Source of the DNA: a virus
IMG/VR virus record: IMGVR_UViG_3300027797_000021
Coordinates: 1-64,000 of that record
Reading direction: 5' to 3' (one strand)
DNA length: 64,000 nt
Shown here: positions 7,090-61,300 of the stretch, in pieces
How positions within the stretch are numbered: the first letter of the stretch is position 1
How the letters are laid out: every line of letters starts with the position of its first letter
Made by a program: the position numbers and the translations under genes
The notes under the pieces: generated by a model
Told to the model about the DNA's origin: nothing
The model's input: only the letters and a program-made list of their open reading frames with translations
The model's database searches: none

Positions 7090-7455
7090 TTACTCCTCGT
7101 AAATACCTATTGGATTCCAATTTGGATTGTCTAATTTTTCTCTTGTATCTTTAACATAAGAATCCCAGTCTCGTTCATCTTCTGTTATTCTTTCATATTT
7201 AACTTGGCCTTTGAATGGATTTGTCTTAAACTTAGTAGTTATTAAACGACCCTGTTGAGTCTTCCATCTGAGTACTCCATTTTTACAGTCGCAAAAATCA
7301 TCATTGTCAGGACTGACCTTTAGCTGAGGATCATAGCGCCCACTGCATCCATTACATTTTGTATATCGCCCTTTGTCCTGACACCTATTGCAGGACGGAC
7401 AAAAAACCCAACACCATTTTTCAGTTGGGTTCACTGACGGGTTTACGTTAGACAT
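7090..7455 (-). CDS. Zinc-finger-like Cys-rich protein
   Basis: 121 residues. Near the N-terminus, residues 15-37 contain C-W-x2-CPSCNRC...CNGC and a later CDC pair, Cys pairs spaced like DnaJ-type or ribbon zinc sites. The second half is charged (ERITEDERDWDSYVKDTREK). It overlaps the DnaE stop by 8 bases and is therefore co-expressed with the polymerase. A zinc-stabilised protein-protein or nucleic-acid adaptor is inferred; no family is recognised. Confidence 0.55.
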   Translation of the reverse strand: MSNVNPSVNPTEKWCWVFCPSCNRCQDKGRYTKCNGCSGRYDPQLKVSPDNDDFCDCKNGVLRWKTQQGRLITTKFKTNPFKGQVKYERITEDERDWDSYVKDTREKLDNPNWNPIGIYEE

Positions 7456-10400
7456 TTTGTTTCTCCATTCTAATAATTTCTTCTATAATACTTTTAACTC
7501 TTTCGGATGTATTATTTTTAAAGTTATAAATAAACTTATGTACACCGTCTTCTACCTGTAAGTAGACAGGCTTATCACCTTTTGACGATTCAATTATATC
7601 ATATATTTTTTGAATAGTTAAGGGCGAGATACTTTTATCTATATCAAATACTAAAGCTTTTCCACTAGAAAATATATGTGAATCTATTTTCTCTGAATTA
7701 TTATAAAACAATCTTACAATAGAACCCTCTTCGTCACTTTCCTTATTCACGGATCCTGACATAATAAATATGTCTCCCTTAGAAAATGGTTCTTCACCCA
7801 GCTGTTTGGCGGAGTTAGGGAATATGACAATTTCTATATCTGAAGATATGTCCTCCAGTAAGACCTTATACATCTTAGTTCCCTTTTTTGTAATTATAGT
7901 TTTTACGTCTGTTACAATTCCCCCAACTCTTACTGGAGTCCCATTTGCAACTTCGACTAAATCAATAATTTCGTAATCAATCTTCTTAGACAATATATCC
8001 CATATGCCGTTAACCGGGTGATCCGTTACGTACATCCCAAGTTCTTCTTTTTCTTTTTCTAGAAGTTCTATTTCTTGTATTCTGTTAATTTCTAGATCAT
8101 CCCTATAGTCAAATAACTCATCAAAAGCTCCAGCACTTGCGAGATGTTCTAGTGTTGTTTTCTTAAGCGTTGAAGGATCACATCTTCTAAAAAAATCATA
8201 TATGCTAGTGTATGGAAGACTTAAATCTCGAGCATTAACTATTGCATCTGCAATGGAGACACCTATTCCATTTACTGCAGACAGGCCAAAAACAATTCCG
8301 CTATCTCCGTCAACTTCAAAGTCAATTCCAGAATAATTAACTGATGGAGGAAGTACATTTATTCCTAACTTTCTACAGTCTGCTAGGTAAAAGGATTGCT
8401 TTTCTTTATTGCCGACTACTGAGGACATTAGTGCTGCCATATATTCAACTGTATAGTTACTCTTTAGATAGGCAGTAACATAGCTAATCATGGCGTAGCT
8501 AGCTGCGTGCGCTCTGTTAAATCCGTATCCTCCGAAGTATTCAATATCTGAGAATATTTTATTAGCTAAAGATTCACTTAGTCCAGATGTTTTTTGACAG
8601 CCTTCTACGAATTTTGAGCGTATGCTTGCAATTTTATCCATTAGCTTTTTACCGATAACTTTTCTAAGATCGTCAGCTTCAGCTGAAGTAAAACCAGCTA
8701 GTTCTCTTGCCACTCCCAATACGTCCTCTTGATACAGCATAATGCCGAGCGAAGGCGCTAGAACCTTTTCTAGTTTTTCATGCTCGTATTTAACTTTACT
8801 ACGACCGTGCTTTCTATCGATATACTCCTTGTCCATTCCGGAACCCATTGGACCAGGTCTATATAGGGATATTAGGGCCATGATGTCTTCAACATTGCGC
8901 GGCTGTAGCTGCATCATCAGCTGTCTCATCCCAGATGATTCAAGCTGGAACACTCCTGCGCAGTTACCCTTGCAGAGCTCATCGTAAGTCCTACTGTCGT
9001 CTAAGGGAATTAGATCTATGTCTATATCTATACCCCTATGCTTAAGGACTAACTTAACGCATGAATCAATAACACCAAGATTTCTAAGTCCAAGGAAGTC
9101 AATTTTGAGAAGTCCACATTGCTCAACTCTTCCCATATCCCATTGGGTGACTAACGGATTGTCCACACCCTTTTTCATTACTGGAAGATACTCAGTGAGA
9201 GCTTCACGAGAAATAACAATTCCAGCAGCGTGAATTCCAGTTTGTCTAACCAGTCCCTCTAATCCAAAAGCTGCGTCAATAATATTTTTAGCTGTTGAAT
9301 CTTTATTGTAAAGTTGATTGAAATCTTCAACGTCCATACATTCAGATAGACTCTTGGACACACCAAGAATGGGAGGTGGAACTAACTTTGCAACTGAGTC
9401 ACCAGTATTGAAGTCATGCCCTAGAGCTCTTGCAGCATCTCTGATTGACTGTCTGGCACCGCTTCTATTGAATGTGCAGATGTGTGCAACATGGTCAGAT
9501 CCATATTTTAATCTGGCGTAGTTAATGACTTCATCTCGATGTCTATCATCAAAGTCGAGGTCGATGTCGGGCATGGACTTTCTTCCCTCAACCAAAAATC
9601 GTTCAAACATTAAACCAAATTTAATAGGATCAAGATTGGTAATTTTAAATGCGTATGACAGAATACTTCCAGCAGCCGACCCTCTACCCCATCCGACTCT
9701 AATGTGATTATCTTTAGCCCAATTTACTAAATCAGAAACAACCAAGAAATATTCTGGGAAGCCCATATCCTTTACGACTCTCATTTCATAGAGAGCTCTG
9801 TCCACAATGTGTTGCGGAAGTGGGTCGCCATATCTTTCCTTTAATCCGCTCCACGCTAATCTCTCAAAATAATCTATAGAAGATTCACTTGTCGGAATAG
9901 GAAAGTTAGGAAAATAAATATTTCCAAAATTAAGATTAACATCTACCATGTCACATACGTCCATGGTATTTTTTAGCCACTCCGAATTAAATCTTCTTTC
10001 CATATCGTCATAGGATTGCAGATAAAACTCATCGCCACTAAAGGAGAATCTATTAGGAGTGTTAACGTTTGCGTTAGTGGCTACACATAGCATGATGTCG
10101 TGTGCTCTAGCGTCATGCTGATGCACATAGTGGCAGTCGCCACTGGGAACAACTTTAGCGCCAATGATAGATGCAATTTCGATTAGTTGATTAAATACTT
10201 TTCTTTGCTCAGATAGACCATGATCCTGAATCTCAATAAAGTAATTTTCTTTTCCTACAATATCTTGCATCTTTTTAGCCGACGCTAGTGCGTAGTTAAA
10301 ATCATCTCTCAATAAAGCTTGAGACACTTCTCCATTAAGGCACCCAGACAAAACAATAATGCCGTCAGAGTGTTCCGATATGAGATCATGATCGACTCTT

Positions 10401-10783
10401 GGCTTAACATAATAGCCTTCAAGAAAAGATCTAGAAGACATTTTAATTATATTATTATACCCGGCATTATTCTTAGCCAAAATAGTTATGTGATAAGGCC
10501 CTCTTTGCTCCCACTCGTTCTTAGCTGGGCCTGATCTTTCTTCTGGGTCTTTATCAAATCTTGTTTTTCTAGCTTGATAAAATTCAGAACCTAGAATTGG
10601 CTTAACTCCAGTGGCTACTCCAGCGTCATAGAAATCTAACCATGAATGGATATTGCCATGATCGGTAGTCGCTAGACCCTTCATCCCAAGGGACTGCGCT
10701 CTATCTAAGTACTGCTCTATCCGACCATGACCATCCAACATGGAGTAAACCGTATGGTTATGTAAGTTTGTCCAATTTTTCAC
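7448..10783 (-). CDS. dnaE: DNA polymerase III alpha subunit (DnaE) with intact PHP domain
   Basis: A 1111-residue C-family replicative polymerase, near the usual DnaE length. GTG start at 10783 (TAGTG overlap; GAGGA before it). The PHP domain has every expected metal ligand in order: H8, H10, D17, H42, E67, H98, C148, D216, H218. The palm carries D406/D408 in PDIDLDFD and a third Asp at D562 (KIDFLGLRNLG). Near residue 960 an OB domain (VRVGGIVTDVKTIITKKG) follows. No separate epsilon exonuclease is seen, so proofreading probably comes from the PHP site as in mycobacterial DnaE1. It is the phage's own replicase, grouped with primase and helicase. Confidence 0.95.
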   Translation of the reverse strand: MKNWTNLHNHTVYSMLDGHGRIEQYLDRAQSLGMKGLATTDHGNIHSWLDFYDAGVATGVKPILGSEFYQARKTRFDKDPEERSGPAKNEWEQRGPYHITILAKNNAGYNNIIKMSSRSFLEGYYVKPRVDHDLISEHSDGIIVLSGCLNGEVSQALLRDDFNYALASAKKMQDIVGKENYFIEIQDHGLSEQRKVFNQLIEIASIIGAKVVPSGDCHYVHQHDARAHDIMLCVATNANVNTPNRFSFSGDEFYLQSYDDMERRFNSEWLKNTMDVCDMVDVNLNFGNIYFPNFPIPTSESSIDYFERLAWSGLKERYGDPLPQHIVDRALYEMRVVKDMGFPEYFLVVSDLVNWAKDNHIRVGWGRGSAAGSILSYAFKITNLDPIKFGLMFERFLVEGRKSMPDIDLDFDDRHRDEVINYARLKYGSDHVAHICTFNRSGARQSIRDAARALGHDFNTGDSVAKLVPPPILGVSKSLSECMDVEDFNQLYNKDSTAKNIIDAAFGLEGLVRQTGIHAAGIVISREALTEYLPVMKKGVDNPLVTQWDMGRVEQCGLLKIDFLGLRNLGVIDSCVKLVLKHRGIDIDIDLIPLDDSRTYDELCKGNCAGVFQLESSGMRQLMMQLQPRNVEDIMALISLYRPGPMGSGMDKEYIDRKHGRSKVKYEHEKLEKVLAPSLGIMLYQEDVLGVARELAGFTSAEADDLRKVIGKKLMDKIASIRSKFVEGCQKTSGLSESLANKIFSDIEYFGGYGFNRAHAASYAMISYVTAYLKSNYTVEYMAALMSSVVGNKEKQSFYLADCRKLGINVLPPSVNYSGIDFEVDGDSGIVFGLSAVNGIGVSIADAIVNARDLSLPYTSIYDFFRRCDPSTLKKTTLEHLASAGAFDELFDYRDDLEINRIQEIELLEKEKEELGMYVTDHPVNGIWDILSKKIDYEIIDLVEVANGTPVRVGGIVTDVKTIITKKGTKMYKVLLEDISSDIEIVIFPNSAKQLGEEPFSKGDIFIMSGSVNKESDEEGSIVRLFYNNSEKIDSHIFSSGKALVFDIDKSISPLTIQKIYDIIESSKGDKPVYLQVEDGVHKFIYNFKNNTSERVKSIIEEIIRMEKQNV

Positions 10784-10989
10784 TAGATTCCTCTACTTTT
10801 ATCTGAACCATCTAAGGCTCTATTTCTTGTTTGACGATAAGTAATAATGACTACTCCACCACAAAACTTACAAGGCACTGACTTTCCCTCTTGGGCAAAT
10901 GGACTATTGTACATATACTTTTCGGGTTGATCTGATTTACATTCAGAACAAACACCAATAACTTCGTCTTCTTCATTGTTCTCTTCCAT
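10783..10989 (-). CDS. Small zinc-ribbon protein
   Basis: 68 residues from the ATG at 10989, which follows AAGGGAGGTG; the frame to 11022 lies within the primase and lacks a ribosome site. An acidic start (MEENNEEDEV) is followed by CSEC and, about 27 residues later, CKFC, a four-cysteine zinc ribbon, then a basic tail. It overlaps both primase (10973) and dnaE (TAGTG), so it is translated with the replication core. It may be a replisome adaptor; this is inferred from position only. Confidence 0.65.
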   Translation of the reverse strand: MEENNEEDEVIGVCSECKSDQPEKYMYNSPFAQEGKSVPCKFCGGVVIITYRQTRNRALDGSDKSRGI

Positions 10990-12184
10990 GTTCACCTCCC
11001 TTGCTGAGAGCTGTATAGGCAAATCTGATCGGGGATGGGGCAGATTGCTCTTGAGTTTCCATAAATTTGTCTCCTATTTTTACCCATTTATTTCTTTTAT
11101 CTAGAGAGCATTGGCCGCATCCTACTCCGGCTGCATTTGCTCTTTCGCAGGTATAGGGTCTTCCGCCTATTCCTAGATTTCTTCTTTTGACCCAATCATT
11201 AATATGACTGTTGGTTTTCTCCACATTATAATCGTCACAGTTACTTAGTATGCCGTGCAGAAATTCAATAGATTCCTGATTATATGTTAGAATTGAACAT
11301 AGGAATAGCCTAGCTTCATGTTCTAAGAACTTACTATCAATTGCTTGTTGCCATAGTCTCTTAATGGCGGAACAGCTTTCTAATAATCTTTTTGGAGTAA
11401 AGTCTTTTTCTTTTTCCTCTACCGTCTTAAAGGCAGATGACCCATGCCTATTAAAGTATCCAATAAAATCTTTAGATCTTTCTTTATCTATTTCTAAGTT
11501 ATATGTAAACTCCCTAAACCATTCGTTTGCTCTAGCATTAAACGATTGTTCTTGTATTATATTTTCTGACTGCTCTTTGCAGTACTCTAGCACGTCAGCA
11601 ATTCCCATATTTAATACCTCAAGTGGAATTATATTTTTGTAGAGACCAGTATCTTGGTGCCGACTTCCTTGCAGTCTCCACATTCTTCTTGCGTCATATA
11701 CGCTAAAGTCTAAAGAGGTAAGGCTAAGCTTTTCCTTTAGGGAAGTAGCAATGAATCTAAATATATTTGGAAGATTATTGGAAGGACTTATACCTAAAGT
11801 GACAGCTTCGCATTCAATGTGAAATCCCTTTTTCCCCGTAAAGTAAACTATTATTGCGGATTGCGGAATGTACTGCAAAAGGTACTTATAGAGTTTTACA
11901 CACTCTACGTAGGATATCTCTTGGTCCTTGTTGTCAATGTCAAAATATAAAGAGCCTAGTCTAACTGCTTCTTCTAGGTCTTGAGAATTGTAAGACCACA
12001 CAGATGTATATAGTCCTGTGTTTTGATTCTCTGCTCTAAAAGACTCAATATTATTGACCTCTATTAGGATTGGCTTATCACCATTCTTGGAGCGTATTAC
12101 CTTAGAGAGGGAGGGCACGTACTTGGCTATCTCTACATACTTCCAAGAAGACAAATATTTAGAGTCATCATCTGGTATTCTCAT
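10973..12184 (-). CDS. Archaeo-eukaryotic-type primase with PriL-like Fe-S domain
   Basis: 403 residues. The N-terminal half shows AEP-superfamily motifs: D82/D84 (YFDIDN), the GKKGFH loop 117-122, D164 with R166/R170 (VYDARRMWR), and H176 (GSRHQDTG). The C-terminal part resembles the eukaryotic/archaeal large primase subunit domain: C271, a His/Arg-rich helical region (LEHEARLFL), then C346, C356 and C359 (TCERANAAGVGCGQC), a possible 4Fe-4S site. It would make primers for the DnaE polymerase. Both primase halves in one chain, beside a bacterial polymerase and helicase, is unusual. Start ATG overlaps the upstream stop (ATGA). Confidence 0.75.
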   Translation of the reverse strand: MRIPDDDSKYLSSWKYVEIAKYVPSLSKVIRSKNGDKPILIEVNNIESFRAENQNTGLYTSVWSYNSQDLEEAVRLGSLYFDIDNKDQEISYVECVKLYKYLLQYIPQSAIIVYFTGKKGFHIECEAVTLGISPSNNLPNIFRFIATSLKEKLSLTSLDFSVYDARRMWRLQGSRHQDTGLYKNIIPLEVLNMGIADVLEYCKEQSENIIQEQSFNARANEWFREFTYNLEIDKERSKDFIGYFNRHGSSAFKTVEEKEKDFTPKRLLESCSAIKRLWQQAIDSKFLEHEARLFLCSILTYNQESIEFLHGILSNCDDYNVEKTNSHINDWVKRRNLGIGGRPYTCERANAAGVGCGQCSLDKRNKWVKIGDKFMETQEQSAPSPIRFAYTALSKGGEHGREQ

Positions 12185-12366
12185 AGTATTTTAGCTTTAC
12201 CCTCTTCGCAATTAATGTCAATCGTGGCTATTTTTTCTTCTATAATACTGCCAGAATGTGACCTATAGTAAATGGACTCTTTTATTATATCATCTAGGTG
12301 CGACAGAATAAACATCCTATTAACTATTCTCATTTGTTTATTTCGAAGACTTTCTCCACTGCTCAT
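12181..12366 (-). CDS. 61-residue hypothetical protein
   Basis: A small basic-to-acidic protein (MSSGESLRNKQMRIVNRMF...) that overlaps the HD gene end by 29 bases and the primase start by 4 (ATGA). The first Met may be replaced by M12 or M17. No recognised motif. Its position wedged between an HD hydrolase and primase, with coupled starts, supports it being a real gene of the replication operon. Confidence 0.5.
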   Translation of the reverse strand: MSSGESLRNKQMRIVNRMFILSHLDDIIKESIYYRSHSGSIIEEKIATIDINCEEGKAKIL

Positions 12367-13012
12367 TCATTAACTCGCTATCTTCAATAACATTGTGAAT
12401 TTTACTTGCAACGTTGTCTGCTATGTGAACTATATAGTCCATATATGTTATAGGGCAGGTCTCTGGAACTGGAGACCAGGGACCAAGGTGACATCTTACC
12501 AGGCGCAAAATGGTTTGCGCCACATCTTCTGCGATAAAGAGACTGGTGGACTGAGAATCATTGCCGTATTCTTTATCATGCGCTTGACACTTGGATATAA
12601 AATTACCAACCGTATAAGGATGCATCGGATCGTAATTAAATGAGGTTGAGTCCTCGGAAACAATTCCCTTTGTTATGTCATGCAGTATGCATGCTGCGAT
12701 GATTATATCTCTTTCATCCTCTGACAGTGAATACGAATCACATAATATAGAGGCCACTCTGACTACACGCTTAGTGTGAAGAACGTTGCCTCCGGCATTA
12801 TGTTCGTCCGGCGGATGATATTTCCCAGAAAAACTAGATGGTATATTCCAAAAGATCTCTGCCTTAAGTAGAATTGATCGAATAAAAGACGCTATTGAGT
12901 CATCGTTGATTAAATTAATTTCATTTAAAAGTTCAGATAAAACTTCATTCTCATTAGAGATAATATCACTTTTATCTTCTTTTAGTATTTCATCTAATAT
13001 ATTTTTTGCCAT
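12338..13012 (-). CDS. HD-domain phosphohydrolase
   Basis: 224 residues from the ATG at 13012 (TAATG overlap with the upstream stop). HD-superfamily metal ligands: H79 (NVLHTKRV), H111-D112 (ILHDITKG), H131 (MHPYTV), and a distal Asp in VHIADNVAS. A preceding HPPDEHN stretch is probably part of the pocket. Such enzymes cleave phosphate esters of nucleotides (dNTPase, nucleotidase, cyclic-nucleotide hydrolysis); the substrate cannot be told from sequence. In the middle of a replication operon a nucleotide-pool or signalling-nucleotide role is likely. Confidence 0.75.
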   Translation of the reverse strand: MAKNILDEILKEDKSDIISNENEVLSELLNEINLINDDSIASFIRSILLKAEIFWNIPSSFSGKYHPPDEHNAGGNVLHTKRVVRVASILCDSYSLSEDERDIIIAACILHDITKGIVSEDSTSFNYDPMHPYTVGNFISKCQAHDKEYGNDSQSTSLFIAEDVAQTILRLVRCHLGPWSPVPETCPITYMDYIVHIADNVASKIHNVIEDSELMNEQWRKSSK

Positions 13013-13788
13013 TATTTCCATCCATTCCATTTTGAGCAAGGAGCATCGAATGGACACTTCTTGCAATATTGTGTTAAACCTCTTCGCGGAACAAAGACCT
13101 CTTTAGATTCTATGGAGTCACACCAGTATTCTATCGAATCTATGTCCTGTTGATTTATTTCATATTCATTAAATGATAAATTGTTAGATAATAAATCTAT
13201 ATATCCAAACTTGGTATTTTTTATTTTAGCTGGATGTAAGTTTTTAAATGCGAGATACATAGCTGCAAAATCCATTTGATATATATGTCGGTAATTATTT
13301 TTGTAATTAAACATTAATTTAACTACATAATTTTCATTGTCTTTTCTATATATAACATCAAACTTATCTTCTATTCTGACGTTATTGTTGATTGTAATAA
13401 TATAGTCATCATAGATAGACAAAGGTATTAGATCCGTTTGACTATATGTTTCATGAAATCTCAATAATAATCCGGCTGCCTGTGTTGTAAGGCTGGCTGC
13501 ATTGCCATAGGCACTCTCGTGCTTTTCTGTAGCTATATCATAGTGACTAGTATCTTTTGGAAACCAAATCTTTTCCCATCTGTTTAACAGGGAGGCGTAT
13601 GACGGAGTAATTCCACCTTGTTTCTTGAACCAAAAAAAATGTATAATGCTTTTTATTGTTGCTTCAAATTTAGTAGTGTATATATCTCTAGAGTAGATAG
13701 TTTCTGGAAGCTTTTCTACATACCTATAATCATATAGTCTTTCACATGTCTGAAAATCTTTAATCGAATTTACATTAAGGTTGATCAT
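13012..13788 (-). CDS. Degenerate Cas4-like Fe-S protein
   Basis: 258 residues from the ATG at 13788 (TGATG overlap with the helicase stop). It has the Cas4-style Cys arrangement: C15 (FQTCERLYDYRY), then C242, C245 and C251 (CKKCPFDAPC). The nuclease core is recognisable (DKFDVI for GFIDRVD, FNYKN for TDYKTG, QMDFA for QLGIY), but the second metal Asp is Asn and the Tyr of QxxxY is Ala. It looks catalytically inactive while keeping the cluster. Sitting directly after the DnaB helicase, it may be a structural or DNA-binding partner, as AddB's Fe-S domain is; that is inference. Confidence 0.65.
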   Translation of the reverse strand: MINLNVNSIKDFQTCERLYDYRYVEKLPETIYSRDIYTTKFEATIKSIIHFFWFKKQGGITPSYASLLNRWEKIWFPKDTSHYDIATEKHESAYGNAASLTTQAAGLLLRFHETYSQTDLIPLSIYDDYIITINNNVRIEDKFDVIYRKDNENYVVKLMFNYKNNYRHIYQMDFAAMYLAFKNLHPAKIKNTKFGYIDLLSNNLSFNEYEINQQDIDSIEYWCDSIESKEVFVPRRGLTQYCKKCPFDAPCSKWNGWK

Positions 13789-15248
13789 CAATCAAATCCT
13801 TCTCCACTTAATAGGTTTTGTAGGTCTGTTTCATCTGAATATGAATCCTTAGAAACGTGCTCATATTCTTCATATATTTTCTTTGCATCGTTGTATCTAA
13901 CTAGAGGCGGATCATACATAAATGCAGATCCTGTAATTCTATTCTTGGGTATCTGCAATTGCATTACGTGTTCATCTTCAGTTTCATCATTTGATGCTAA
14001 ACGTTTTTCTGTAATGAAAATAGTTACTGCGCACTTTTGCTGAATAGCGAGAGATCCACCAGTGTCTGATTGTTGAACAACTTCTCTTTTTTCTTTCATT
14101 CTATTTGAGTTTTCCTGTGCAGTAATAATTAGAGCGCAGTTCATATCTCTGGCTAGCTTTTCTAAGCGAACCATCATCTCTTCAAATTCACCCCAACGTG
14201 GCTTACCTTTTCCTGCACCTCTCGTAAACATTGATTGTATTGTGTCGATAATTAAAACATCTGGAATTTTATCCCCATGACCTATTAAGTCTCTTAGCCA
14301 AAGTTCAAGATCCTCGAAGTAAGGTGTGTCCGGATCATGGCGAACCATTAAACGATCCCCCCATTCCTCAAGCTTCGCCTTAAACTGATTTAGGTACCCT
14401 TGCTTTTCAGTCTCTGTCCATTTGTCTGATTCTGAATAAACATTCTTACCAATAATTTGGGTCATCAATATTCTTTCCCAGTGGCCAGTAGCTTCTTCAA
14501 AGTTTACAAAAAGAACCCTATGCCCAGTGTCTAACCAATGATTGGCTAGGCACTTTGCGAAGGTACTCTTACCCTTGCCGGAGGCAGCTATGATTGCGTG
14601 TACAGCGCCCTTAAAGAAGCCTCCCTCGTCAGTGTACCCCATTGCTCTATTGAGCGATTTAAACTGGGTAGACATGAAGTTCGGGATATCCAAGAGGCCA
14701 TCGACTCTTGCCAGAATATCATTGGCGGTTGTTAATTTGTCTAACGGATTATATTTAATTGAACTTTCTAGTTCTTTAATCTGAGATGTAACTTCGGAAA
14801 TTCTATCTACATCTTCTATTGACTTTAAGCCTTTTTTATTTAGAAGTAGTTGCAGCTCGTGTAAGTAATTTATTTGCTTACGCTTATTAGCCTTATGTTT
14901 AAGTAGCTCTAACACAGATTCTCTACTAGGCGTATCTACGCTTAAGATGTAATCCAGCATGATTGATATGCCAGCTCCTCCGCCTAGGGCGGAATAAATA
15001 TCTGTTTCAGTTTCTAGCCAAGATTTAAAAGCTATTGAATCAACTATGTCTAGATTGGTAGCCCTATGAAAAGATAATAAAGCTTCATAGAATTCATGAG
15101 TTCCTTTTTCACCATGTATCAGTCCAACTATATCAGTAGGTAAATTGTCGTTAAAAAAAGCTATTGCCCCATGTTCTTTTAGACATAGGGCAAAGGCCTG
15201 ATACTCTAACGGTGAATTTTCTGACTCAGAGATTTCTTCTATTGTCAT
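13788..15248 (-). CDS. dnaB: Replicative DNA helicase, DnaB family
   Basis: 486 residues from the ATG at 15248 (TTG one codon earlier). The N-terminal helical domain (residues about 10-160) is DnaB-like. The RecA-type core has Walker A AASGKGKST (222-229) and Walker B VLIIDTIQSM with D335, plus a sensor-type segment ALIITAQEN and an arginine-rich C-terminal part. It would unwind the fork for DnaE and recruit the primase. It overlaps the endonuclease gene upstream and the Fe-S protein downstream by a few bases. Confidence 0.9.
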   Translation of the reverse strand: MTIEEISESENSPLEYQAFALCLKEHGAIAFFNDNLPTDIVGLIHGEKGTHEFYEALLSFHRATNLDIVDSIAFKSWLETETDIYSALGGGAGISIMLDYILSVDTPSRESVLELLKHKANKRKQINYLHELQLLLNKKGLKSIEDVDRISEVTSQIKELESSIKYNPLDKLTTANDILARVDGLLDIPNFMSTQFKSLNRAMGYTDEGGFFKGAVHAIIAASGKGKSTFAKCLANHWLDTGHRVLFVNFEEATGHWERILMTQIIGKNVYSESDKWTETEKQGYLNQFKAKLEEWGDRLMVRHDPDTPYFEDLELWLRDLIGHGDKIPDVLIIDTIQSMFTRGAGKGKPRWGEFEEMMVRLEKLARDMNCALIITAQENSNRMKEKREVVQQSDTGGSLAIQQKCAVTIFITEKRLASNDETEDEHVMQLQIPKNRITGSAFMYDPPLVRYNDAKKIYEEYEHVSKDSYSDETDLQNLLSGEGFD

Positions 15249-15882
15249 CAATTTTAGAACCTTTTATTTTTCTGTATAGACTTTTTCTATACTCAGAGTT
15301 TTTCTTTTTTGCTTCGTTGTAGAATGGATTATCTGTAAGTGATTTTTTTTGTTTCTTATCAGAGATATAATCACTGGACCTAATTGCCTCCAGCATTCTA
15401 TTATACACGCTGTCTTCAGTTAGGGAGTCGTTATAGCGAAAAACTATTAGAGCAATACCGTTATCTTTACAGTATTCGACTTTCTTTTCATCTCTCTTTT
15501 GGGCTTCTTCAAACTCATATTTAGATTCAAAAAATCTACTGGTGTAAAAAAAATGCTGACGTCCATGATATTCTGCCGCCAACTTATACGAGGGACAGTA
15601 AACATCAAATCTTAGCCTATCATCAATGTGATATTCATTTACTATTTCTTCACCTGGAAGGATCTTTTGCATGATCTGAGTTAGAGCTGTCTGACCTCTA
15701 GACATTTTTTTTCTAGATTCTTTCAACCAAGATAAACCTAATTGATTTATCTTTTTGTTGACTTCATTAACTGAGACATCTAGCTCTCTAGCTATTGCAC
15801 TAATTGATAAGCTTGTCTCTAGTAAGAGATCGATCAAAAACTGTACATCATCTTCTTCTAGTTTATTCTTTTTATCTTTCAT
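15226..15882 (-). CDS. HTH plus PD-(D/E)XK endonuclease (DUF559/Vsr-like)
   Basis: 218 residues. Residues 24-46 (TSLSISAIARELDVSVNE) form a helix-turn-helix. The central domain has D113 and E125 in RFDVYCPSYK...AEYHGRQHF, the D-x(11)-E-Y-x-G-x-x-H pattern of Vsr/DUF559-type restriction-fold nucleases, followed by YCKDNGIALIVFRY as the last strand. The C-terminal tail is basic. It could be a structure-specific or free-standing homing-like endonuclease; the HTH suggests DNA recognition. It overlaps the helicase by 23 bases and the upstream gene by 4. Confidence 0.65.
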   Translation of the reverse strand: MKDKKNKLEEDDVQFLIDLLLETSLSISAIARELDVSVNEVNKKINQLGLSWLKESRKKMSRGQTALTQIMQKILPGEEIVNEYHIDDRLRFDVYCPSYKLAAEYHGRQHFFYTSRFFESKYEFEEAQKRDEKKVEYCKDNGIALIVFRYNDSLTEDSVYNRMLEAIRSSDYISDKKQKKSLTDNPFYNEAKKKNSEYRKSLYRKIKGSKIDDNRRNL

Positions 15883-16520
15883 GCTACTGGCTGAGGATAT
15901 GTAACCTTGCTCAAACTAAGTGTTTTGCCAAAATCTATGGTTGACATATTTAAGTTCTCCCATATTTTTGACATTAAAGCTAGACCTAATACTCCACAGT
16001 CCATAATGCAATAGTCAACTCCGCCTTCAAACTCTGCGAGTTGTGCATATATGCTATCAATTTTTTCATAATAATTAGTATAAGCTACGTTGATGATGTG
16101 AGTATTGTTTCCAAAGTGTTTTTGAATTATCTTTTTATCATGAAAAGTAATAACAACACTAGGTGTATTCTTAATGTAATAATTGACTGTTGAATTATAT
16201 ATCTCTTTATTATTCATGTAATAATATTCAAAGATATTAGAATAGTAATACTCTCCATTTTTATGGAGGCCTATCTTATAATGCTTACCGTCTTCGATGT
16301 CAGATACTAGCGAATGTGAAATTGCTTTCATTACATTTGGATCTGTATTCTTTAATGATGAGACTACGCTCTTTGCAAAATGACTTGGAAAAGAATTGTC
16401 CGAGTTTTTACTTAGGGCAATTATTGCTGATTTAGGAACATTGATGTATGAAAATTTTTTCTTCTTTTCCATAGCTGATGTTAAGTTGATGATGGACTGT
16501 GCTTGATTTAAAAATGTCAT
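15879..16520 (-). CDS. GT-D-fold glycosyltransferase-like protein
   Basis: 213 residues. The C-terminal region (HFGNNTHIINVAYTNYYEK, then DYCIMDCGVLGLALMSKIWE and STIDFGKTLSL) resembles the end of GT-D (DUF1792-type) glycosyltransferases, where a Gly-rich strand is followed by a helix and an A/S-I-D-x-G motif. The N-terminal half (VPKSAIIALSKNSDNSFPSH) may hold the donor site. Expected to move a sugar from a nucleotide sugar to an unknown acceptor. It lies directly before a GT2 gene on the transcript. The assignment is by distant resemblance. Confidence 0.5.
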   Translation of the reverse strand: MTFLNQAQSIINLTSAMEKKKKFSYINVPKSAIIALSKNSDNSFPSHFAKSVVSSLKNTDPNVMKAISHSLVSDIEDGKHYKIGLHKNGEYYYSNIFEYYYMNNKEIYNSTVNYYIKNTPSVVITFHDKKIIQKHFGNNTHIINVAYTNYYEKIDSIYAQLAEFEGGVDYCIMDCGVLGLALMSKIWENLNMSTIDFGKTLSLSKVTYPQPVA

Positions 16521-16529
16521 ATTTTCCTA

Positions 16530-17222
16530 TTAAATTCCAAATGTTCCCCAGTCAATTAAGACTGGGTTACTGTCCAATATTGAGTTGATATGGCCAAGAT
16601 TATGAAACTCTCCGCCATCTATTTCTGTATATCTTTCATGCTTTATTTGCTTATCTTCATCTAAGATATAACCTAGATGTTGCATTACTAGCTTAGAGTC
16701 TTTCCAAAAGTTACCTTGTCTCATCCAATCAACTACATAGGTAGGTTCTGAACCGCAAGCCAATTTTTTATTTGCAAATCCGCCACCCTCTACAAATCTA
16801 AAAATTCTAGAGCTATTGTTTGGCGCCCAAAGCTTGTCTACTCGATATTGATTTTCATTCCACATATGATAAAATCTTACGTTAACTACATCCTGTGGAG
16901 ATTGACTCAGTACTGTTCTAATGTCAATATTTTCCAAATGAAAAAGCTTTTCATCACAGTCAATTGCAACAATCCAATCACCTTTTTTGGCGAACTTTTC
17001 CATATTGCCCCAGGCATATGCTCGAAGCTTAGCTTCGTGGACCTTAAAGAGTGGCTCTGGTGACTGAAAAACTTCTGCGTACTTTGCAGCTATTTCAGGA
17101 GTATTATCAGTAGAGCAGTCGTCTGTGAAAATAATTTTGTCAACTTGACTGCTAAGTTTTTGAAGAACATCTTCTAAAAATCTAGAAGATTCATTGCGGC
17201 CTATCATTTGTGCATAAATCAT
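16530..17222 (-). CDS. GT2-family glycosyltransferase
   Basis: 230 residues from the ATG at 17222, with TTAGGA upstream; longer starts lie inside a terminator hairpin. The GT-A fold motifs are clear: IIFTDDCSTDNTPEIAAKYA (nucleotide-binding Asp residues) and WIVAIDCDEKLFH (DxD metal site). The rest (YHMWNENQYRVDKLW, RIFRF) fits the acceptor half. Substrate unknown; phage GT2 enzymes modify virion proteins, host surface sugars or hypermodified bases. It starts a new transcript segment after the terminator at 17238..17273. Confidence 0.8.
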   Translation of the reverse strand: MIYAQMIGRNESSRFLEDVLQKLSSQVDKIIFTDDCSTDNTPEIAAKYAEVFQSPEPLFKVHEAKLRAYAWGNMEKFAKKGDWIVAIDCDEKLFHLENIDIRTVLSQSPQDVVNVRFYHMWNENQYRVDKLWAPNNSSRIFRFVEGGGFANKKLACGSEPTYVVDWMRQGNFWKDSKLVMQHLGYILDEDKQIKHERYTEIDGGEFHNLGHINSILDSNPVLIDWGTFGI

Positions 17223-17237
17223 TATTGTCCTAAGGGT

Positions 17238-17273
17238 AAAAAAGATTGAGGGGAGAGATCCCCCCCTCAATCT
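17238..17273 (-). terminator. Rho-independent terminator
   Basis: On the minus strand AGATTGAGGGGG pairs with CCCCTCAATCT around a short loop and is followed by six T. It terminates transcripts ending with 17300..17494, upstream of the GT2 gene. Confidence 0.9.
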
Positions 17274-52340: not shown

Positions 52341-55300
52341 CTACGTTCCCGGATTCAATGTGACTTGTCTTGGAATTAGTGCAGATTCTTCTGCGCTAAT
52401 AACTGATTGGGACTCCACTTGAAGCTGCTTTGCATAAACTGTTGCAAGATTATTAACAACTAGTTCCCAGTTTAGAGTAACCGGATATCCATCTTCGTAA
52501 TATTCATCCCAGAATATAGTAGGCCAATCATTAGACTTTTCATAAGTTGTTTCTAATACCTTAAAGCAAACTAGATTATTGTAAAATCTATTAAAGTCTT
52601 CTTCCGTCAGTCCATAATTTGCCATTGATTGTGCAGAAAGATCCAATGGTGGATTATATTGAATATCCAAAGTAGCAATTTTTTTCATAATATTGGATCT
52701 TTTTATATAAAGGGGAGATTCCTCGTACACTGAAGCAAAAAACTTTTTACTAACATCATCATCTGTGCCTGTATCTGATACTGTAGGAACAATTATCTTC
52801 CCCTGATTTGCAACGAAACATCCCCTGACAAAATCTTTTGCTTGATTGATGACTGATTCTGGCTGATAGTACCAGACCGTCCCTAGTGCTCTTTTCCCTT
52901 CGGCGCCGTCGAAAGAGTCTTTTGTATAGTTTTCAAATCTATTCTCAGCAGCGCCGGGTTCAAACTGAGCTTCGAATATAACATCATTACTTGAGCTATT
53001 GCTAACTTTCATTCTTAATACAAATACTTTATTAGCTATTTTACTCTGCGTATAAATCTTAGCTCTACCGCCAGGGGTTGAGGTAGATGTTAGATTCGTT
53101 GTATCCCCAAATGGATCGTTAACATCTCCACCTGGTTCACTTGGGATTTCTCCCACTCTCATGGTATTGGTTTCGCCTGTGTTCATTCCATCAAATCTGA
53201 CAGTAAAAGTTGCTCCAGAAATAACGTCCTCGACATCAAATGTGTCGCCGTCTTTAAACTTAGTAACTGTTGCTATTACCTTAAATAGGGATGTTTGCAG
53301 GGCAGTTTTCTCTGGACCAAGTCCGCTAAGACTAAGTACTCGAGCGTGTGTTAGAGCATTTTCGTAATCAGTATATCTGACTAGATCTTTTATTTCAGTT
53401 TCTTGCCATCCAAGACTCTTTAGTAGGTCGTCGCTTCTAATAAAGGCATTGCCTTCAGGCGTTTTTACTTTTGTTCTTGCTCCTAATATTCCTGGCAGTA
53501 AAGCTTTTGTATGGTACCTACCTACTACCATACCTTGATTATATGATAATCCTGCGTCCATTGGTTGACCATTTTTATTTAGATACTGAACATAGCAGCC
53601 ATGCTGATCGAGTACGTTATCCCTCAGCCATGTCCAGCCCTTCCAGGCTAATTGCCCAACGATTGGAACTGCCCTTGCCAAAGATGCTCCCACGACTGCT
53701 ATAACAGTATCTGCCCCCGGCACTTTAGCTTGCCCGGCTCTTGCTATTTCGTCTCGTGCTCTATCCGGAAGGCTTAGCGCAGTTTGATTTGCCATAATAT
53801 CTTTCATCAAAGCTGAGGATCCGTGTGTATACTGAATTCCGCCAATCATCTGTGTACTCAAGGAGTCTGCTAGTGCATCTACGGAAATGTTTCCACCCAT
53901 GTTTATACCAGAGTTCGATGCCATAATATTATCCATGTAGAATCTAGTATCATTTCTTAGATTCTGCATACTGAGCCATGAGTGCAACCATGTTGACATA
54001 AACCATCTGGAGGGATCATTAACTGTAACTAAGGCATTGGGTGTGATGCTGGTAACGTATCCCATCTCTGAAGTGAAGTGATGAACTACTTGCTCTACCT
54101 CAAATATTCCATACATTCTACTATAGACATCAGATAGATACACTAAGTCGTGCGGTCTAATATCTGGATTTCCCACTAAAGTGAGTTCTCCACCATAAAT
54201 ATCCTTAATGGATTCCTTTAGATGGGATAGTGCCACTCTTCTCGCGGACAGTTCATCTGGAGTGCCTTGTAAAGTTTTTGCATATCCCCTAAATGTTTCC
54301 AGGGGGTGCATAAAGGGGTGAAGAACTCCAAGGAATCCAGAACCAACCATATTATCATAATATAATCCGGTCTCAACTGTAGTCTCTGTTTGACGCTCTG
54401 ATGGAGCCCCTTTATCTAATGCAACCGTTACTGGATTTTTTCCATCAGAAACCGCTGTAATAACAGTTGAAACGTTATTTAAATTTTCTTGAATTTGATT
54501 GGATATAATATGAGAAAAAGAACTTAAATAATGTATTCTTTGGAATGGCTGGCGAACCTCTACTACAGGCTCTCCATATTCTCTAGTGAATGGATTGTCA
54601 ACTGCCCTTAACAGCGTTCCTGGTCTTCCGAGTGAATAGTATATTGAATCATTTAATACTTTATTAAGAATATGAGCCTGCTTACTAAAGTTCCCAACCT
54701 CAGAAAGTGCATATCCCATCTGCATCATGCTCAACTTAAACATGCCCAAGAGTGAGCTCAGGCCATCTCCAATGGCTCCAAGTATTGGACCAATATTAGC
54801 GTTGTAGAAATCTGATACGTCTTCATCTATTCCACCAATAAACGTTGAAGAGTTACTTCCCTCTCCTTTTGTCGAAACTAAAAGCTTTAGGAATTTACTA
54901 TTGTCTTTAGCGTATTGGCTATATGGATTAATGAATGCTTCAAATACTTTATCGATTGGCTTAAAGGACCACTGTCCATCTTCGCCTCCTCCGCCAGATG
55001 TAATTGCACCACGTTTTCTGTCTGGCTTAAGCACTAGCCAAGCTCTACCATATCCAGAGCTCCAAAGCTTTTGCCTGAATAACCCAACCATCAATAGGAA
55101 TAGTTGCTTAGGTGTCTTAACTGCTTCTGATAAATTTATTGCAGTTTCTGGATTATCTTTATTCTCAATTGAAATTGAAAGCGCGTTATTAATTACCTGT
55201 GTTTCAAAGAAATTTGACCTGATACCATCTAATGATTTAGAGATAACACTATTGAAATACTGTATAATTCCAGCGTCGCCTTGAACTCCTTTACTCTGAT

Positions 55301-58300
55301 AGTCTATATAGTTATTTGTAATAAACTCCACAGCATCTTTTTTATCTTGAGGTGTAGATTTAGTGGAACCGTAATTGCTTCCATATTGAGTTTCTGAATT
55401 AAAGAAATCGGAACCCAATAGAATGGCTATTTCGTCTACTCCTGTACCTTCAGTAGCAGAAAGACCAGGAATGGTTACATTGGATTGTGAGAAATTTTGA
55501 AATGAGGTAACATTGTTTCCTCCTAGTATTCTTGAGAATTCTGGAGGAAATTGATCTGTTGAATCAGCGTCCATACCATATGTCTTAGTAAATATAGCCT
55601 TAACGCTATCATAAGTATGATATCCAAATCTGAACTGATCCCATATGTCACTTGCCTGATCAAGTGTTCTTCCGTTTCCAGCTATTACCGAAACATTAGG
55701 GTCATAATTCTCATCATAAAAAGATCTAGCTTCAACTGATGTGCTATCCATTGGCGAATAGACGGCGGCAAAGCCGACTCGCCCACTGCCAGAATCCTCA
55801 TCTCCTGTCGTATAAAGCTCAGCATCGAGGCGTTCATATAGCTTACCCTTATCTAGGGCATTGTAATCCTTGTCTATAATTGCCTGAAAGTATCCTGGAT
55901 TATCTCCGCTTTTAAGAATATTTCCACCATACTCATAATTCATAGTAGTGACTCTAGCGTTCTGCGCAGAATACTCTTCTAGTGAGCTATCCTTGTCGGC
56001 ATCAATCTTAAAGTAATCTCCTACGCTAGGTTGACCAAAGTCTCCAGGACCAAAAACTTTTGGTGAAGCAATAAACTTATTACTGTCGCCATTGTCATTT
56101 ATGGCGTATGCTCCAAAGCCAATAATATATGCAGTTGCGTCATTGGTGTCGTAAAATCTTTTTGCTGGGGCTGCTTCTGCTGCAACGACTCCCAATGGGG
56201 TACCATCTGGTACGAAAGCAAAGAGGCAATCAACATCTCGTGGGAAGGTGCTTAAACCGCTTGCTTTTTCCAATTGAGCGTATGTGCTATTTGCTATGGT
56301 CATATCTAAAGTATTCGAATCATAGCTTTGCAAATTGGCCCAAGCGGGTAAAGATTCTGAGAGTTCACCAATTAAATTAGCTCCTTCATTGAACTGAGAT
56401 ACAAATGTTCCTAAGTACCATGCAGCGTCGGGCGACACAACTGCTGCAACTTCGTCATCATTATCCTCTCCCCACATAAAGTACGCCGGGGCACAAACTA
56501 CTGCTCTTCCCGTTAACGGGCTGAATACAAGTACTCTTCTTTTTTTGTAATCGCTTGCTGTTCCATATAGATCTTCATTGGGGAAGTAGGTATCTTTAAA
56601 TTTACTCAGTGATGCGTCGGGGATAGGGCCATCGGACGTGGTGGGCAAGTAGGGCCATTTCATTGCTATGTAGAATTGTTCTTCCGTTGCAGTTGCTGGA
56701 CAGCCCCATTCTTCATATGTTATTTGTTGATTTAATTCATATTCAAAACTGAAATCATCCGAATTCTCTTCCTTTTGAGCAGTAGTGCTATTGATCATTG
56801 TAAAGCCCACTAAGGGATAGTTTTCTTTCTGTAAAGAAGAGACAGACGGCAGCGGCATTCTTGCGACAGTAGTTTGATCTAGGTTCAAAAACTCCACGCC
56901 AGAAGAACTAATAGAATCCATAAGACTCGTAAAGCCTAAGGGCCTATCTAGCTCCAATATGCCAGAACTAGGCCTTACAGTAATCTCTGTCTCTTGTAGA
57001 AAACGCGATTCTAGTTGAAGAAAATATATTAAGTTTACTGCCAGCGTAGCTCCACCCTCTGTGTAGCTGGACGAATTTATGGCTTCCTTATATCTCTCCA
57101 TCATATCTGCTTGATCTTGCTCAAGATCATCAAGATCATTAGTATCAACTTCGTTTCTTGCTGAAAGAAATTCAGCGAATTCAGAAAATAAACCACCATC
57201 TCTAACTTCGTAAGATTTGCTATCTAAAACGGTAGTTTCAGATATCGTATAGTACGGGTACTTAAATCTTACTGGAAGATTATCTAGTTGTCTATGATCA
57301 TAACTAGGAGTTAAGGGTGCATAAGTTGTGGGATTAGTGCTCACTGGTAAGTGAAAGCCCATTTTAACTTTACCAGAACTAATAGGGAGTTTAGAGATAA
57401 TGATTTCATTATCATCTTCATCTTTACTAGTTCTTATTTTTGCTAGATTTGAATTAAAATTTAATAACTTTCCTGTTAGACTTTTTGTTGGAGCATATTC
57501 TCCAGTGGAAGATGCTTGGTCTTTTGCTAGTCCAGCCATGACATCACTAAGCTCTTCAGATCTCTTAAATGCCTCATAGTCTGCTAATGAGTTAGATTGT
57601 TTATTGACATTGTTCATAATTGTCTGAATATCGTCATTAGGACTTCTATCTTTTGGATAGCCTGGAAGATTTAATTCATTAGCTTTCCTTACGCTTGGAA
57701 AGCCCGTAGTCACTGGAACTACACCGGAAGTATATAACCAATGCGGCTTTCCATAAAAAATAGTAGATCTATCCTCAAAAGGTCTAACTGCTACTATATA
57801 ATTTGGCAGTAGCCTTGCGCACATTTGGAAAAGATCCCATACGGTTCGCATGTATGTTTGTGCTCGGAATGACACTTCGTCAAATCCACTTAAGTCATCA
57901 TCAGCGTTGGGGGCAATTATTCCCATTGTCCTAAATACATTAGTGCCACCCCTACCTCTCAGTAGGCCCATGAGAGCTCCACCTCCAGCTATTCCTGCTA
58001 TAACATTAACTCCCGGTATAGCAGCAATGCCTGCTGTTAGTCCACCTAGTAGGACATTCTTGACAGCCCCTGCCCGTCCTTCTGCTGAAATGAGTTTATT
58101 ACCCTCAACATAGGAATCTATGGCAGCACTAGCAGAAACTGACTCATTTTGAGCTTCTACTATTAATCTGTTCCATGATCTATCTGTTCCATTTTCTAGA
58201 TATGCTTGTCCAGCTAAAGTTTTTCCATCACCCTCAACCAAAGACGCTGCAGTCAGCCATCCATCGTCTAGATCTCCACCTAAGAATTGTGCGAATCCGG

Positions 58301-61300
58301 TTCCATTTCCAGGATAAATATTTCTTTTATATAATTCAAGATCTACTTCTGAAGAAAAATTAGACATTAGTTGACCCATACTGGTCATCACTCCTCCATT
58401 GCCAAAAAATGCGTTCTCATTTCTTGAAAATACATTTGTTGATAACTTAAAAGTTGCGGCGTTAGCTGCTCCACCAATATCTCCCTGCCCAACGTTAGAG
58501 TAGGCATTGGTGACAACGTTTCTCAATCCATCGGCTCTTTGTCTTTCAACTTCGTTGAGTGGCTCATATAGTATTGTACCAAAATGTCTAATGCCAAATC
58601 TATTTTCAGAAAAAACCGTTCCCAGAGTTGCCCTAGCTATTGCTTCGCGAACCCTAGATGCTCCCATACTTAAGAGTCTAACCATTAAGTCTCTTGGCTC
58701 CGAAAGGTACATGCCAGTATCTACTCCGCCATCAATTTTTCCAGAGTCACCTTTTTTATTTGTTGAGTTAACAACAGCGCCAAGTTCAATTGCGTCAGAT
58801 TGGGCAGTGATAGTAACTATTTCCCCTTCTTCAACATTTGTTATAACTCCATTGAATAGCGTTTGCAGTGAGTTTGGATTCGAGCCATACCCACCTCTTA
58901 AGTGAAGTCTAACTCCTGGCTTTAATCTTATATTATTAATGTCAACAACATAATCATTTCTCATTCCGGAAATAATATTTTTAGCTATATTTAAAGTTCT
59001 ATCTAAGATGGCGCTGATTCCATCGACAGCACTTAGGGGATCCTTATTCAGGTCATCATTACCTGCGTTAAATATATCTGTAGACGGGCGCGTTGTTAAC
59101 TTGGAGTACATGTTTGAAACTCTCAATATTAATGTGTCTCCTAATAAATCTTCAGATGATACAACTGAAAAATCTATAACAGACTGAAGTCCATAGAAAT
59201 TATCGAATAATTTGACACCTGCAAACATTCCACCTTCATCTATAAGCCATAGCATGTAAGTGGGGAATGCTCTAATCATGCGCCCAGATATATCTCTATA
59301 TTGGACATCGTTAAGCATTTTTTCCATATGGTTATTGAACGAGCCATCGTAAGCTTTTTGATATGCGGATAACGGCTGAGCTCCACTAATTCCAGTTAAA
59401 GAATTGGTACAACCAATATCTGGAGTTTGCATATCTTTCGTATAATTACTTTCAAACTTTTTTGCGCCATCAGATTCAACTCTAACATTAGTTCCTTCTA
59501 TTGTAAGGTAAAATCTTCCGGTGTCTTTATTGATGTAGCCGAAATGCGTTCCTAGAGCACTATACATTATTGCTGGGATTTCATTAGCGTCTTGTTCTTC
59601 GGGATTAGTCAGTGGAAGTAAGTTAATAATTTTATGGAATTCAACCTCATCTGGATCAAAGCTAACAAATTCCTCTTCTGCTAAATGGGAACTGGCTAAT
59701 ACTTGTGCAATAATATTTTCCGTTTGCGAACCAGTAATGCCAACATTTCCTACGACAAATGGTGCTCCATTAAACTCTTCAAAAATTTGGCTTCCCTCTG
59801 ATGACTGTGACGCTAAAAATATATAATCAGTTAAAAGTGCAATCTTTGAATAATTGTTAATAGTATTATTGTCTGGTTCCGATGTAACTTGTTGAAACAA
59901 TGCAATAAAGTTATGAATGCTGATTCCGGACTCATTTACATAGTCTATCATTTCATTGATTAGATCTTGATTTGTTTGTCTTCTAGATTCAATCGCAGCA
60001 ACATTAGCAGCATCCGTGAATGAGTATCTTCTCATAAAGTCTTTAATGCTATTTTTTACAGATTCAATTTTTCGTTCGATAGCTTCAGCCCCTCTAGGGC
60101 CATCAGTATTTCTTGCCCAATGATCTGAACTATCAAAAGTAAAAGCTTTAGCTAAGTCTACTTGAGTAGTATTGTTATTGATAATGTCACGATCAAACAT
60201 TTCGAAACTTCTAAAATAGAAATCTGGATCTAGGTTGCCAACAATATCTCCATTCTTATCTTTTACACCCAATGGAAGGTCAGGATAAGCGTTGAATGAG
60301 CCCCACAATTGCTTCATTCTTAAGAAAGGATTTCTCTTCGTGCCAAAATGGTCAATTAAGTCTTTTTGCTGCTTTGAAGAAATTTTCTCTCTCTGCTGCT
60401 GGAATATATCAAAGTCAACTAGGCTCAGTTGGACTGAGTAGACATGTGGGTAATTCGGTATTGTATCGACCTTATAGTTAAGTGGCAATACATATTTAAT
60501 GCCAGATAACGCAGTTATAATATTTTTAATTCCTAAGAATCCTATAACCCCAGTAGAGTGTTCTAGTCTAGCTAGACCATTAACATGGTCAAATACTGAT
60601 CTAATTTTTAATAATTCTTTTTCACCAAAGACAGTCATGGACACATTAATGTAACTATCTTTTCCGCCAATGTATTGATAGCTAGGCTCATCTTGCATTT
60701 GGATTTGTAGCTTTGCTAAATTATTACCCATGGACACACTAACGCCGTTAACTATGGCACTTTTTGGATCTAGATCCACACGATTCATTGGAACTTCCCA
60801 CTCATTAAAGTGGTAATCCCCATCTTTCAGCCTAGTTGCCTCCATCATATTCTTAACAAAGCCATCCGTAAAGAATCTTTCGTACATATTTACTTGAAAT
60901 AATTCGGTTACCTGCTGTGTAACTTTTTCTCTATCTGGTTCTACCCCGGCACTTTTAGTCTGTCTAACAATTTCTTCGTCAATCAATATATCTAATACGG
61001 ATCCAGATTCGCCGGCCTTAAGGTCAAATAGATACTTTATCTGATTCAAGCTTTTATCTGATGTTAGCACTCCGTATAAGAAATAAGACTCTTCAGTGCT
61101 AGAGTATTGATAAAAATATCCGGCTACCTCAACTCTTTCATCTGGCCCCAAATAATCCAAGAGCCACTTCTGTTGTTCTTGGTCTAGCCTAGTTGCATTA
61201 GCAATAACAAAAGATTTTGCTAAATAAAGATAAACTTTTTTCTTGGTGTCAGTAGTGGAGATGCCTGCGGTCAGGCTGTCAACTGCCTGGCTTATAAACG

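Follow-up and report, generated by a model that had tools for sequence, protein, structure and literature searches.

The question raised by this locus is whether a virus encodes, in one polypeptide, an AEP catalytic core and a PriL-like Fe-S domain, and whether this polypeptide primes DNA synthesis beside a bacterial-type DnaE and DnaB. The window, namely the whole stretch of DNA analysed, is 64,000 nucleotides long and comes from a 91.6-kb virus record. A single open reading frame fills positions 10973-12184. The original prediction gave these coordinates correctly; the strand is minus, and the plus strand of the same interval is filled with stops (24 in total). The product, P0001, begins with ATG and has 403 amino acids, and its gene is the sole copy in the record. 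P0001 is organized as follows.

10973-12184, minus strand: single-chain AEP primase with a Cys-rich C-terminal domain (CTD), 403 aa (open reading frame and homologues)
11587-12184, minus strand: AEP/PriS-type catalytic core, approximately residues 1-199 (conservation, Foldseek, profile match)
11471-11536, minus strand: helical linker between the core and the CTD, approximately residues 217-238 (secondary structure; alignable to distant AEPs)
11108-11404, minus strand: PriL/PriX/CAPP-like helical Cys domain, approximately residues 261-359 (conservation, profiles, Foldseek)
11018-11101, minus strand: clade-specific C-terminal extension, approximately residues 362-389 (alignment, secondary structure)

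A large group of environmental phages carries the P0001 primase in well-conserved form. Conservation was measured in two samples: 48 diverse AEPs, clustered at about 65% identity, and 138 members of the P0001 clade, which come from environmental phages. In UniProt, a near relative of the P0001 CTD (59% identical) is an 'AE_Prim_S_like' protein from an uncultured phage. P0001 had no match in Pfam, and direct phmmer search of PDB chains gave no match. Elsewhere in the window, a single open reading frame of 3755 aa (52341-63608, minus strand) is very large for a phage gene.

The N-terminal part of P0001 is an AEP (PriS-type) catalytic core, and of this there is no doubt. The AEP / Prim-Pol superfamily motifs hhhDhD, sxH and hD are present as D82/D84 (motif I), GFH122 within GKKGFH 117-122 (motif II) and D159 (motif III) in 48 of 48 diverse AEPs. 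R167/R170, H176 and K183 are further core residues. Across the 48 AEPs, about a dozen positions are invariant: D82, D84, G117, G120, H122, D159, R170, K183, C271, C346, C356 and C359. The residues named in the original prediction (D82, D84, GKKGFH at 117-122, D164, H176, C271, C346, C356 and C359) are all numbered correctly. One assignment, that of D164 as a catalytic Asp, did not hold. Because D164 is Asp in only 29 of the 48 AEPs, the third catalytic Asp is D159 and not D164. When Sulfolobus PriS was aligned, the Asp of 'tlD' and that of 'Yd', which comes later, occupied separate positions. The predicted full-length model (pLDDT 78.6) shows the RRM-like catalytic fold of the AEP superfamily, and Foldseek matched it to LigD-Pol, CAPP and PriS with probabilities of 0.97-1.00 and E-values of only 3e-3 and worse. 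Furthermore, PHROG family phrog_16345 'primase' matched P0001 at 9.8e-26, and a profile built from distant phage AEPs only matched residues 13-238 at 6.6e-54.

The original prediction had set C271, C346, C356 and C359 in a helical context, and would have failed had they not been conserved in homologues. All four are invariant, in 138 of 138 clade members as well as in 48 of 48 diverse AEPs, and the predicted structure of this region is helical. Because of the invariance in the 48 AEPs, these four Cys are exactly those that matter across the family. As in the PriL CTD, the first lies far upstream of the other three. Of shuffled CTDs, 5.6% also contain the loose pattern C-x(55-100)-C-x(6-32)-C-x(2-4)-C; therefore, the spacing alone proves little and it is the invariance that counts. 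W331 in the CTD is also kept across diverse AEPs. The clade has features of its own. C296 and C316, which the original prediction did not list, are invariant within the clade (138/138) and not outside it, so that the clade CTD carries six invariant Cys in total. In addition, this CTD contains a 16-residue insert, and the C-terminal extension, a beta hairpin with a conserved SPSPxRFAY tail, is missing in distant AEPs. The hairpin and tail (11018-11101, minus strand) are a candidate docking piece. C125 is kept in 132 of the 138 clade members, and C202 is mostly kept in the clade.

Is the CTD PriL-like? We consider it likely that the clade CTD is homologous to PriL or has a PriL-like fold. For comparison, the PDB alignment supplied the stretches of Sulfolobus PriL and yeast Pri2. 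When P0001 and four relatives from cultured phages or plasmids were combined in a profile of five AEPs, it aligned to Sulfolobus PriL over 249-337 with the four Cys in register (E=0.0022). When the mixed CTD profile of 48 members was searched against PDB, the best 18 of 20 matches were all PriL/Pri2, although each match is weak by itself (best E 0.024) and the matches are mutually dependent. In hhalign, the alignment of 48 CTDs scored 37 with Sulfolobus PriL, whereas none of 150 shuffles in which the Cys were kept in place exceeded 23; with yeast Pri2 it scored 35, against 18 in shuffles. Thus, the likeness of the CTD to PriL exceeds that given by the cysteines alone. At E-values up to 0.1, PF04104 (primase large subunit) was detected in 20 of the 48 members and PriCT_1 in 19; the distant relatives P0002 and P0003 pass the PriCT_1 (PF08708) cut-off. 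PriCT domains of AEPs from mobile elements have been argued to be relatives of PriL (PMC5862659).

Structure prediction points in the same direction. The CTD model, for which the input alignment included distant CTDs, had a pLDDT of 81.4, with core helices over 90. Its five best Foldseek matches in PDB, all weak (E 0.8-2.6), were PriX, Pol alpha-primase chains and the human Pri2 4Fe-4S domain, and in BFVD it matched a PriL of an archaeal virus (E 7e-4). The order of helices was the same in a model made from the clade only and in the model made from the mixed alignment.

The clade CTD by itself gave a different result. P0001 did not match PF04104 or PriCT_1 (PF08708), staying below the PriCT_1 gathering cut-off, and no PriL match was obtained in NCBIfam. 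A clade-only profile searched against PDB did not find PriL and gave chance matches only, and a tblastn search of phages and plasmids with the CTD alone gave no match. In hhalign comparisons of the clade CTD with distant CTDs, the score was not above the shuffled null even when more divergent clade members were added, probably because clade sequences vary very little (Neff about 2) and contain the 16-residue insert. The sequence evidence that would link the clade CTD to PriL therefore all runs via distant members. The link between the clade CTD and the distant CTDs lies in the shared core and linker helix, in where the domain sits, in how the four Cys are ordered and spaced, in W331 and in the predicted fold. 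Thus, the proposal of a PriL-like CTD is supported, for the most part indirectly, by position, Cys register, fold prediction and mixed profile, and is not matched by PriL sequence similarity of the clade CTD alone.

These results bear on whether the CTD might instead bind zinc, as a helical or knuckle domain like that of PrimPol or of UL52-type and Zn-binding AEPs. Such a domain would contact template and nucleotide, and would have neither an Fe-S cluster nor a common origin with PriL. The stretch C346-x9-C356-x2-C359 resembles half a zinc site, the six invariant Cys leave the set of ligands open, and the clade-only profile lacks a PriL match. In contrast, the mixed profile leads to PriL/Pri2 and the fold prediction to PriX/Pri2, and the first Cys is situated 75 residues before the second, an arrangement found in PriL but not in a ribbon. 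The original prediction had itself named an ordinary zinc ribbon as the alternative. No zinc-ribbon family emerged: a stray Zn_ribbon_Top1 match in 1 of the 48 members (E=0.064) was not consistent, and the only other zinc match was an unconvincing zinc-finger chain (E=0.36). We therefore regard a zinc domain of independent origin as unlikely. On the PriL-like reading, a 4Fe-4S cluster rather than Zn on the CTD is plausible.

The explanation that we favor as a whole, and hold to be reasonably probable, is that P0001 is a replicative primase that consists of an AEP core and a PriL-like CTD, most likely with a 4Fe-4S cluster. In this mechanism, the core would form the first phosphodiester bond and extend the primer through D82, D84 and D159 with two nucleotide sites. 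The CTD would act in the role of the PriL CTD, PriX and the CAPP CTD, keeping the initiating nucleotide close to the core by its 5' triphosphate, and the four Cys would pin the CTD together, most likely around the 4Fe-4S cluster. We judge the initiating-nucleotide role to be moderately likely. PriX carries the second nucleotide site in Sulfolobus; the corresponding position is taken by R306 of human Pri2 and R355 of yeast Pri2, both of which are essential for initiation (PMC5700102). R292 of P0001 may occupy the place of human R306. Yeast Pri2 has C-x14-R-x3-R355 and P0001 has C271-x16-E-x3-R292, with an L-x4-R spacing common to both, and 137 of the 138 clade members retain R292. However, because the R292 position is usually T or A outside the clade, where an R lies four residues earlier, this detail differs between groups. 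PriX shows that priming in itself does not require Fe-S (PMC5700102); therefore, a cluster in P0001, if present, is more likely structural.

A different division of labor can be considered, in which the core of P0001 carries out the whole reaction, as in an ordinary AEP primase-polymerase, and the CTD serves only to dock DnaB or DnaE. The core of CAPP primes without its CTD in vitro (PMC10345425), and the conserved hairpin and SPSPxRFAY tail belong to this clade only. On the other hand, AEPs whose partners differ greatly, AEP-MCM fusions among them, retain the four Cys and W331, and a partner-specific dock would not explain this conservation. We thus consider a docking-only CTD improbable, and prefer an active part for the CTD in initiation.

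The genes beside P0001 suggest which process it serves. They are as follows.

7448-10783, minus strand: DnaE, family C DNA polymerase, directly downstream of the primase (70 of 70 contigs)
12338-13066, minus strand: HD-domain phosphohydrolase-like protein, directly upstream of the primase (PF01966, 7.3e-9; 61 of 61 contigs)
13012-13791, minus strand: PD-(D/E)XK / Cas4-like nuclease (PF12705, 2e-4, and PF01930, 2e-3, both just under cut-off; 61 of 61 contigs)
13788-15251, minus strand: DnaB-type replicative helicase (61 of 61 contigs)

Counts refer to contigs of the first homologue search; the 61 are those with enough sequence upstream, and in each of them the upstream genes have the same order and strand. 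The DnaE and DnaB neighbours named in the original prediction were thus found, and the block DnaB - PD-(D/E)XK - HD - AEP - DnaE is conserved, its upstream part in 61/61 contigs and the downstream DnaE in 70/70. DnaE was also found in five of five relatives tested. The HD protein and the nuclease (12338-13791, minus strand) lie between DnaB and the AEP in all 61 contigs. The gene directly before DnaB (15226-15882, minus strand) has an N-terminal helix-turn-helix and similarity to phrog_559 homing/HNH endonucleases (9e-18); it is kept in most related contigs and is possibly a domesticated nuclease. Two glycosyltransferase-like genes, GT-D-like and GT2 (15879-17270, minus strand), adjoin the replication block and are also conserved.

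The DnaG N-terminal domain was not matched in the P0001 record or in 10 of 11 other records searched, an absence that is suggestive only, since these are virus records of unknown completeness. The one other record with this domain has a KLEB27-3-like primase. Because the block from DnaB to DnaE is fixed and the record has no DnaG match, a replicative role is likely: P0001 is very probably the replicative primase of the phage. It would prime for the phage DnaE at forks opened by the phage DnaB, replacing DnaG. The mixed replisome of AEP, DnaB and DnaE in the original prediction is well supported by this synteny, and cultured relatives have a mixed set too.

The place of P0001 in this block also bears on its relation to CAPP. 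Type A CAPP (MpCAPP/MsCAPP) has, like P0001, an AEP core and a CTD that its authors describe as PriCT-like with conserved Cys (PMC8211822), and a review considers the role of this CTD analogous to that of Pri2/PriX (PMC10345425). P0001 might accordingly be a CAPP-like primase-polymerase for repair or adaptation and not a replicative primase. The only curated match of the clade CTD is the CTD of CAPP type A (type A1), at 6.6e-7 for P0001 and 7.9e-9 for clade member L233; by Foldseek, the P0001 core is structurally near CAPP; and a Cas4-like nuclease is encoded two genes upstream. However, against the CAPP type A model NF040561 (NCBIfam), P0001 scored 27.5 bits over the CTD only, far below the cut-off of 200 bits for the whole protein. 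At its N terminus, CAPP carries TPR (or RT or helicase) domains, and it is encoded beside Cas1/Cas2, whereas P0001 lacks these domains and has HD, PD-(D/E)XK, DnaB and DnaE as neighbours, in a fixed place between DnaB and DnaE (61/61 and 70/70 contigs) in a record with no DnaG match. A CAPP-like function is thus very unlikely, and we retain the replicative primase.

Single-chain primases of this kind are already known. The original prediction stated that in cells the two parts are two proteins; this is not strictly true, because the primase of Nanoarchaeum equitans is fused. Together with PolpTN2 of Thermococcus plasmid pTN2 and the Bacillus provirus phBC6A51, it has PriS-like and PriL-like domains with four Cys in one chain, as P0001 probably does, and purified PolpTN2 was light brown, as expected of an Fe-S protein (PMC3973330). 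At about 920 aa, PolpTN2 contains additional domains and a more extensive PriL region, whereas P0001 has 403 aa and the CTD-like part only. Bacillus phage vB_BboS-125 (L089, 5977-9060) encodes an AEP, a four-Cys CTD and an MCM helicase in one 1027-aa chain, which resembles the known phBC6A51 type. Archaeal and eukaryotic PriS-PriL (Pri1-Pri2) and PriX likewise combine a catalytic core and a helical CTD, and the Cys register of Sulfolobus PriL is shared with P0001 through distant relatives; however, PriS and PriL are separate subunits, and the N-terminal domain of PriL is absent from P0001.

Stand-alone AEP primases are also found in cultured phages and plasmids: gp40 of Thermus phage P23-45, gp067 of Bacillus phage KLEB27-3, CDS0062 of Moorella phage MTATph1 and the AEP of Bacillus plasmid pAD3. 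In each, a CTD in which the four Cys recur in the same order follows the core, and a DnaB gene is nearby. They are only about 20-28% identical to P0001 overall, and lack its C296/C316, 16-residue insert, C-terminal hairpin and SPSPxRFAY tail. Because KLEB27-3, MTATph1 and pAD3 encode DnaE as well, the mixed AEP/DnaE/DnaB set is not unique to the window phage. KLEB27-3 has an additional gene annotated as DNA primase.

A more far-reaching picture can be offered tentatively, and its parts together are doubtful: a large lineage of environmental phages may have given up DnaG entirely in favor of a compact single chain of PriS-PriL-like type, priming for a bacterial-type DnaE and acting on a bacterial-type DnaB, the CTD being a distinct six-Cys metal domain, possibly with a changed cluster site, and the hairpin and SPSPxRFAY tail an adaptor for primer hand-over to the bacterial polymerase or helicase.

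Since fused PriS-PriL primases of mobile elements were described before (PMC3973330), the picture of primase evolution is unchanged. At 403 aa, P0001 is a handy model for what an Fe-S/PriL domain adds to priming, and, with its natural DnaB and DnaE encoded beside it, for the hand-over of primers from an archaeal-type primase to a bacterial polymerase.
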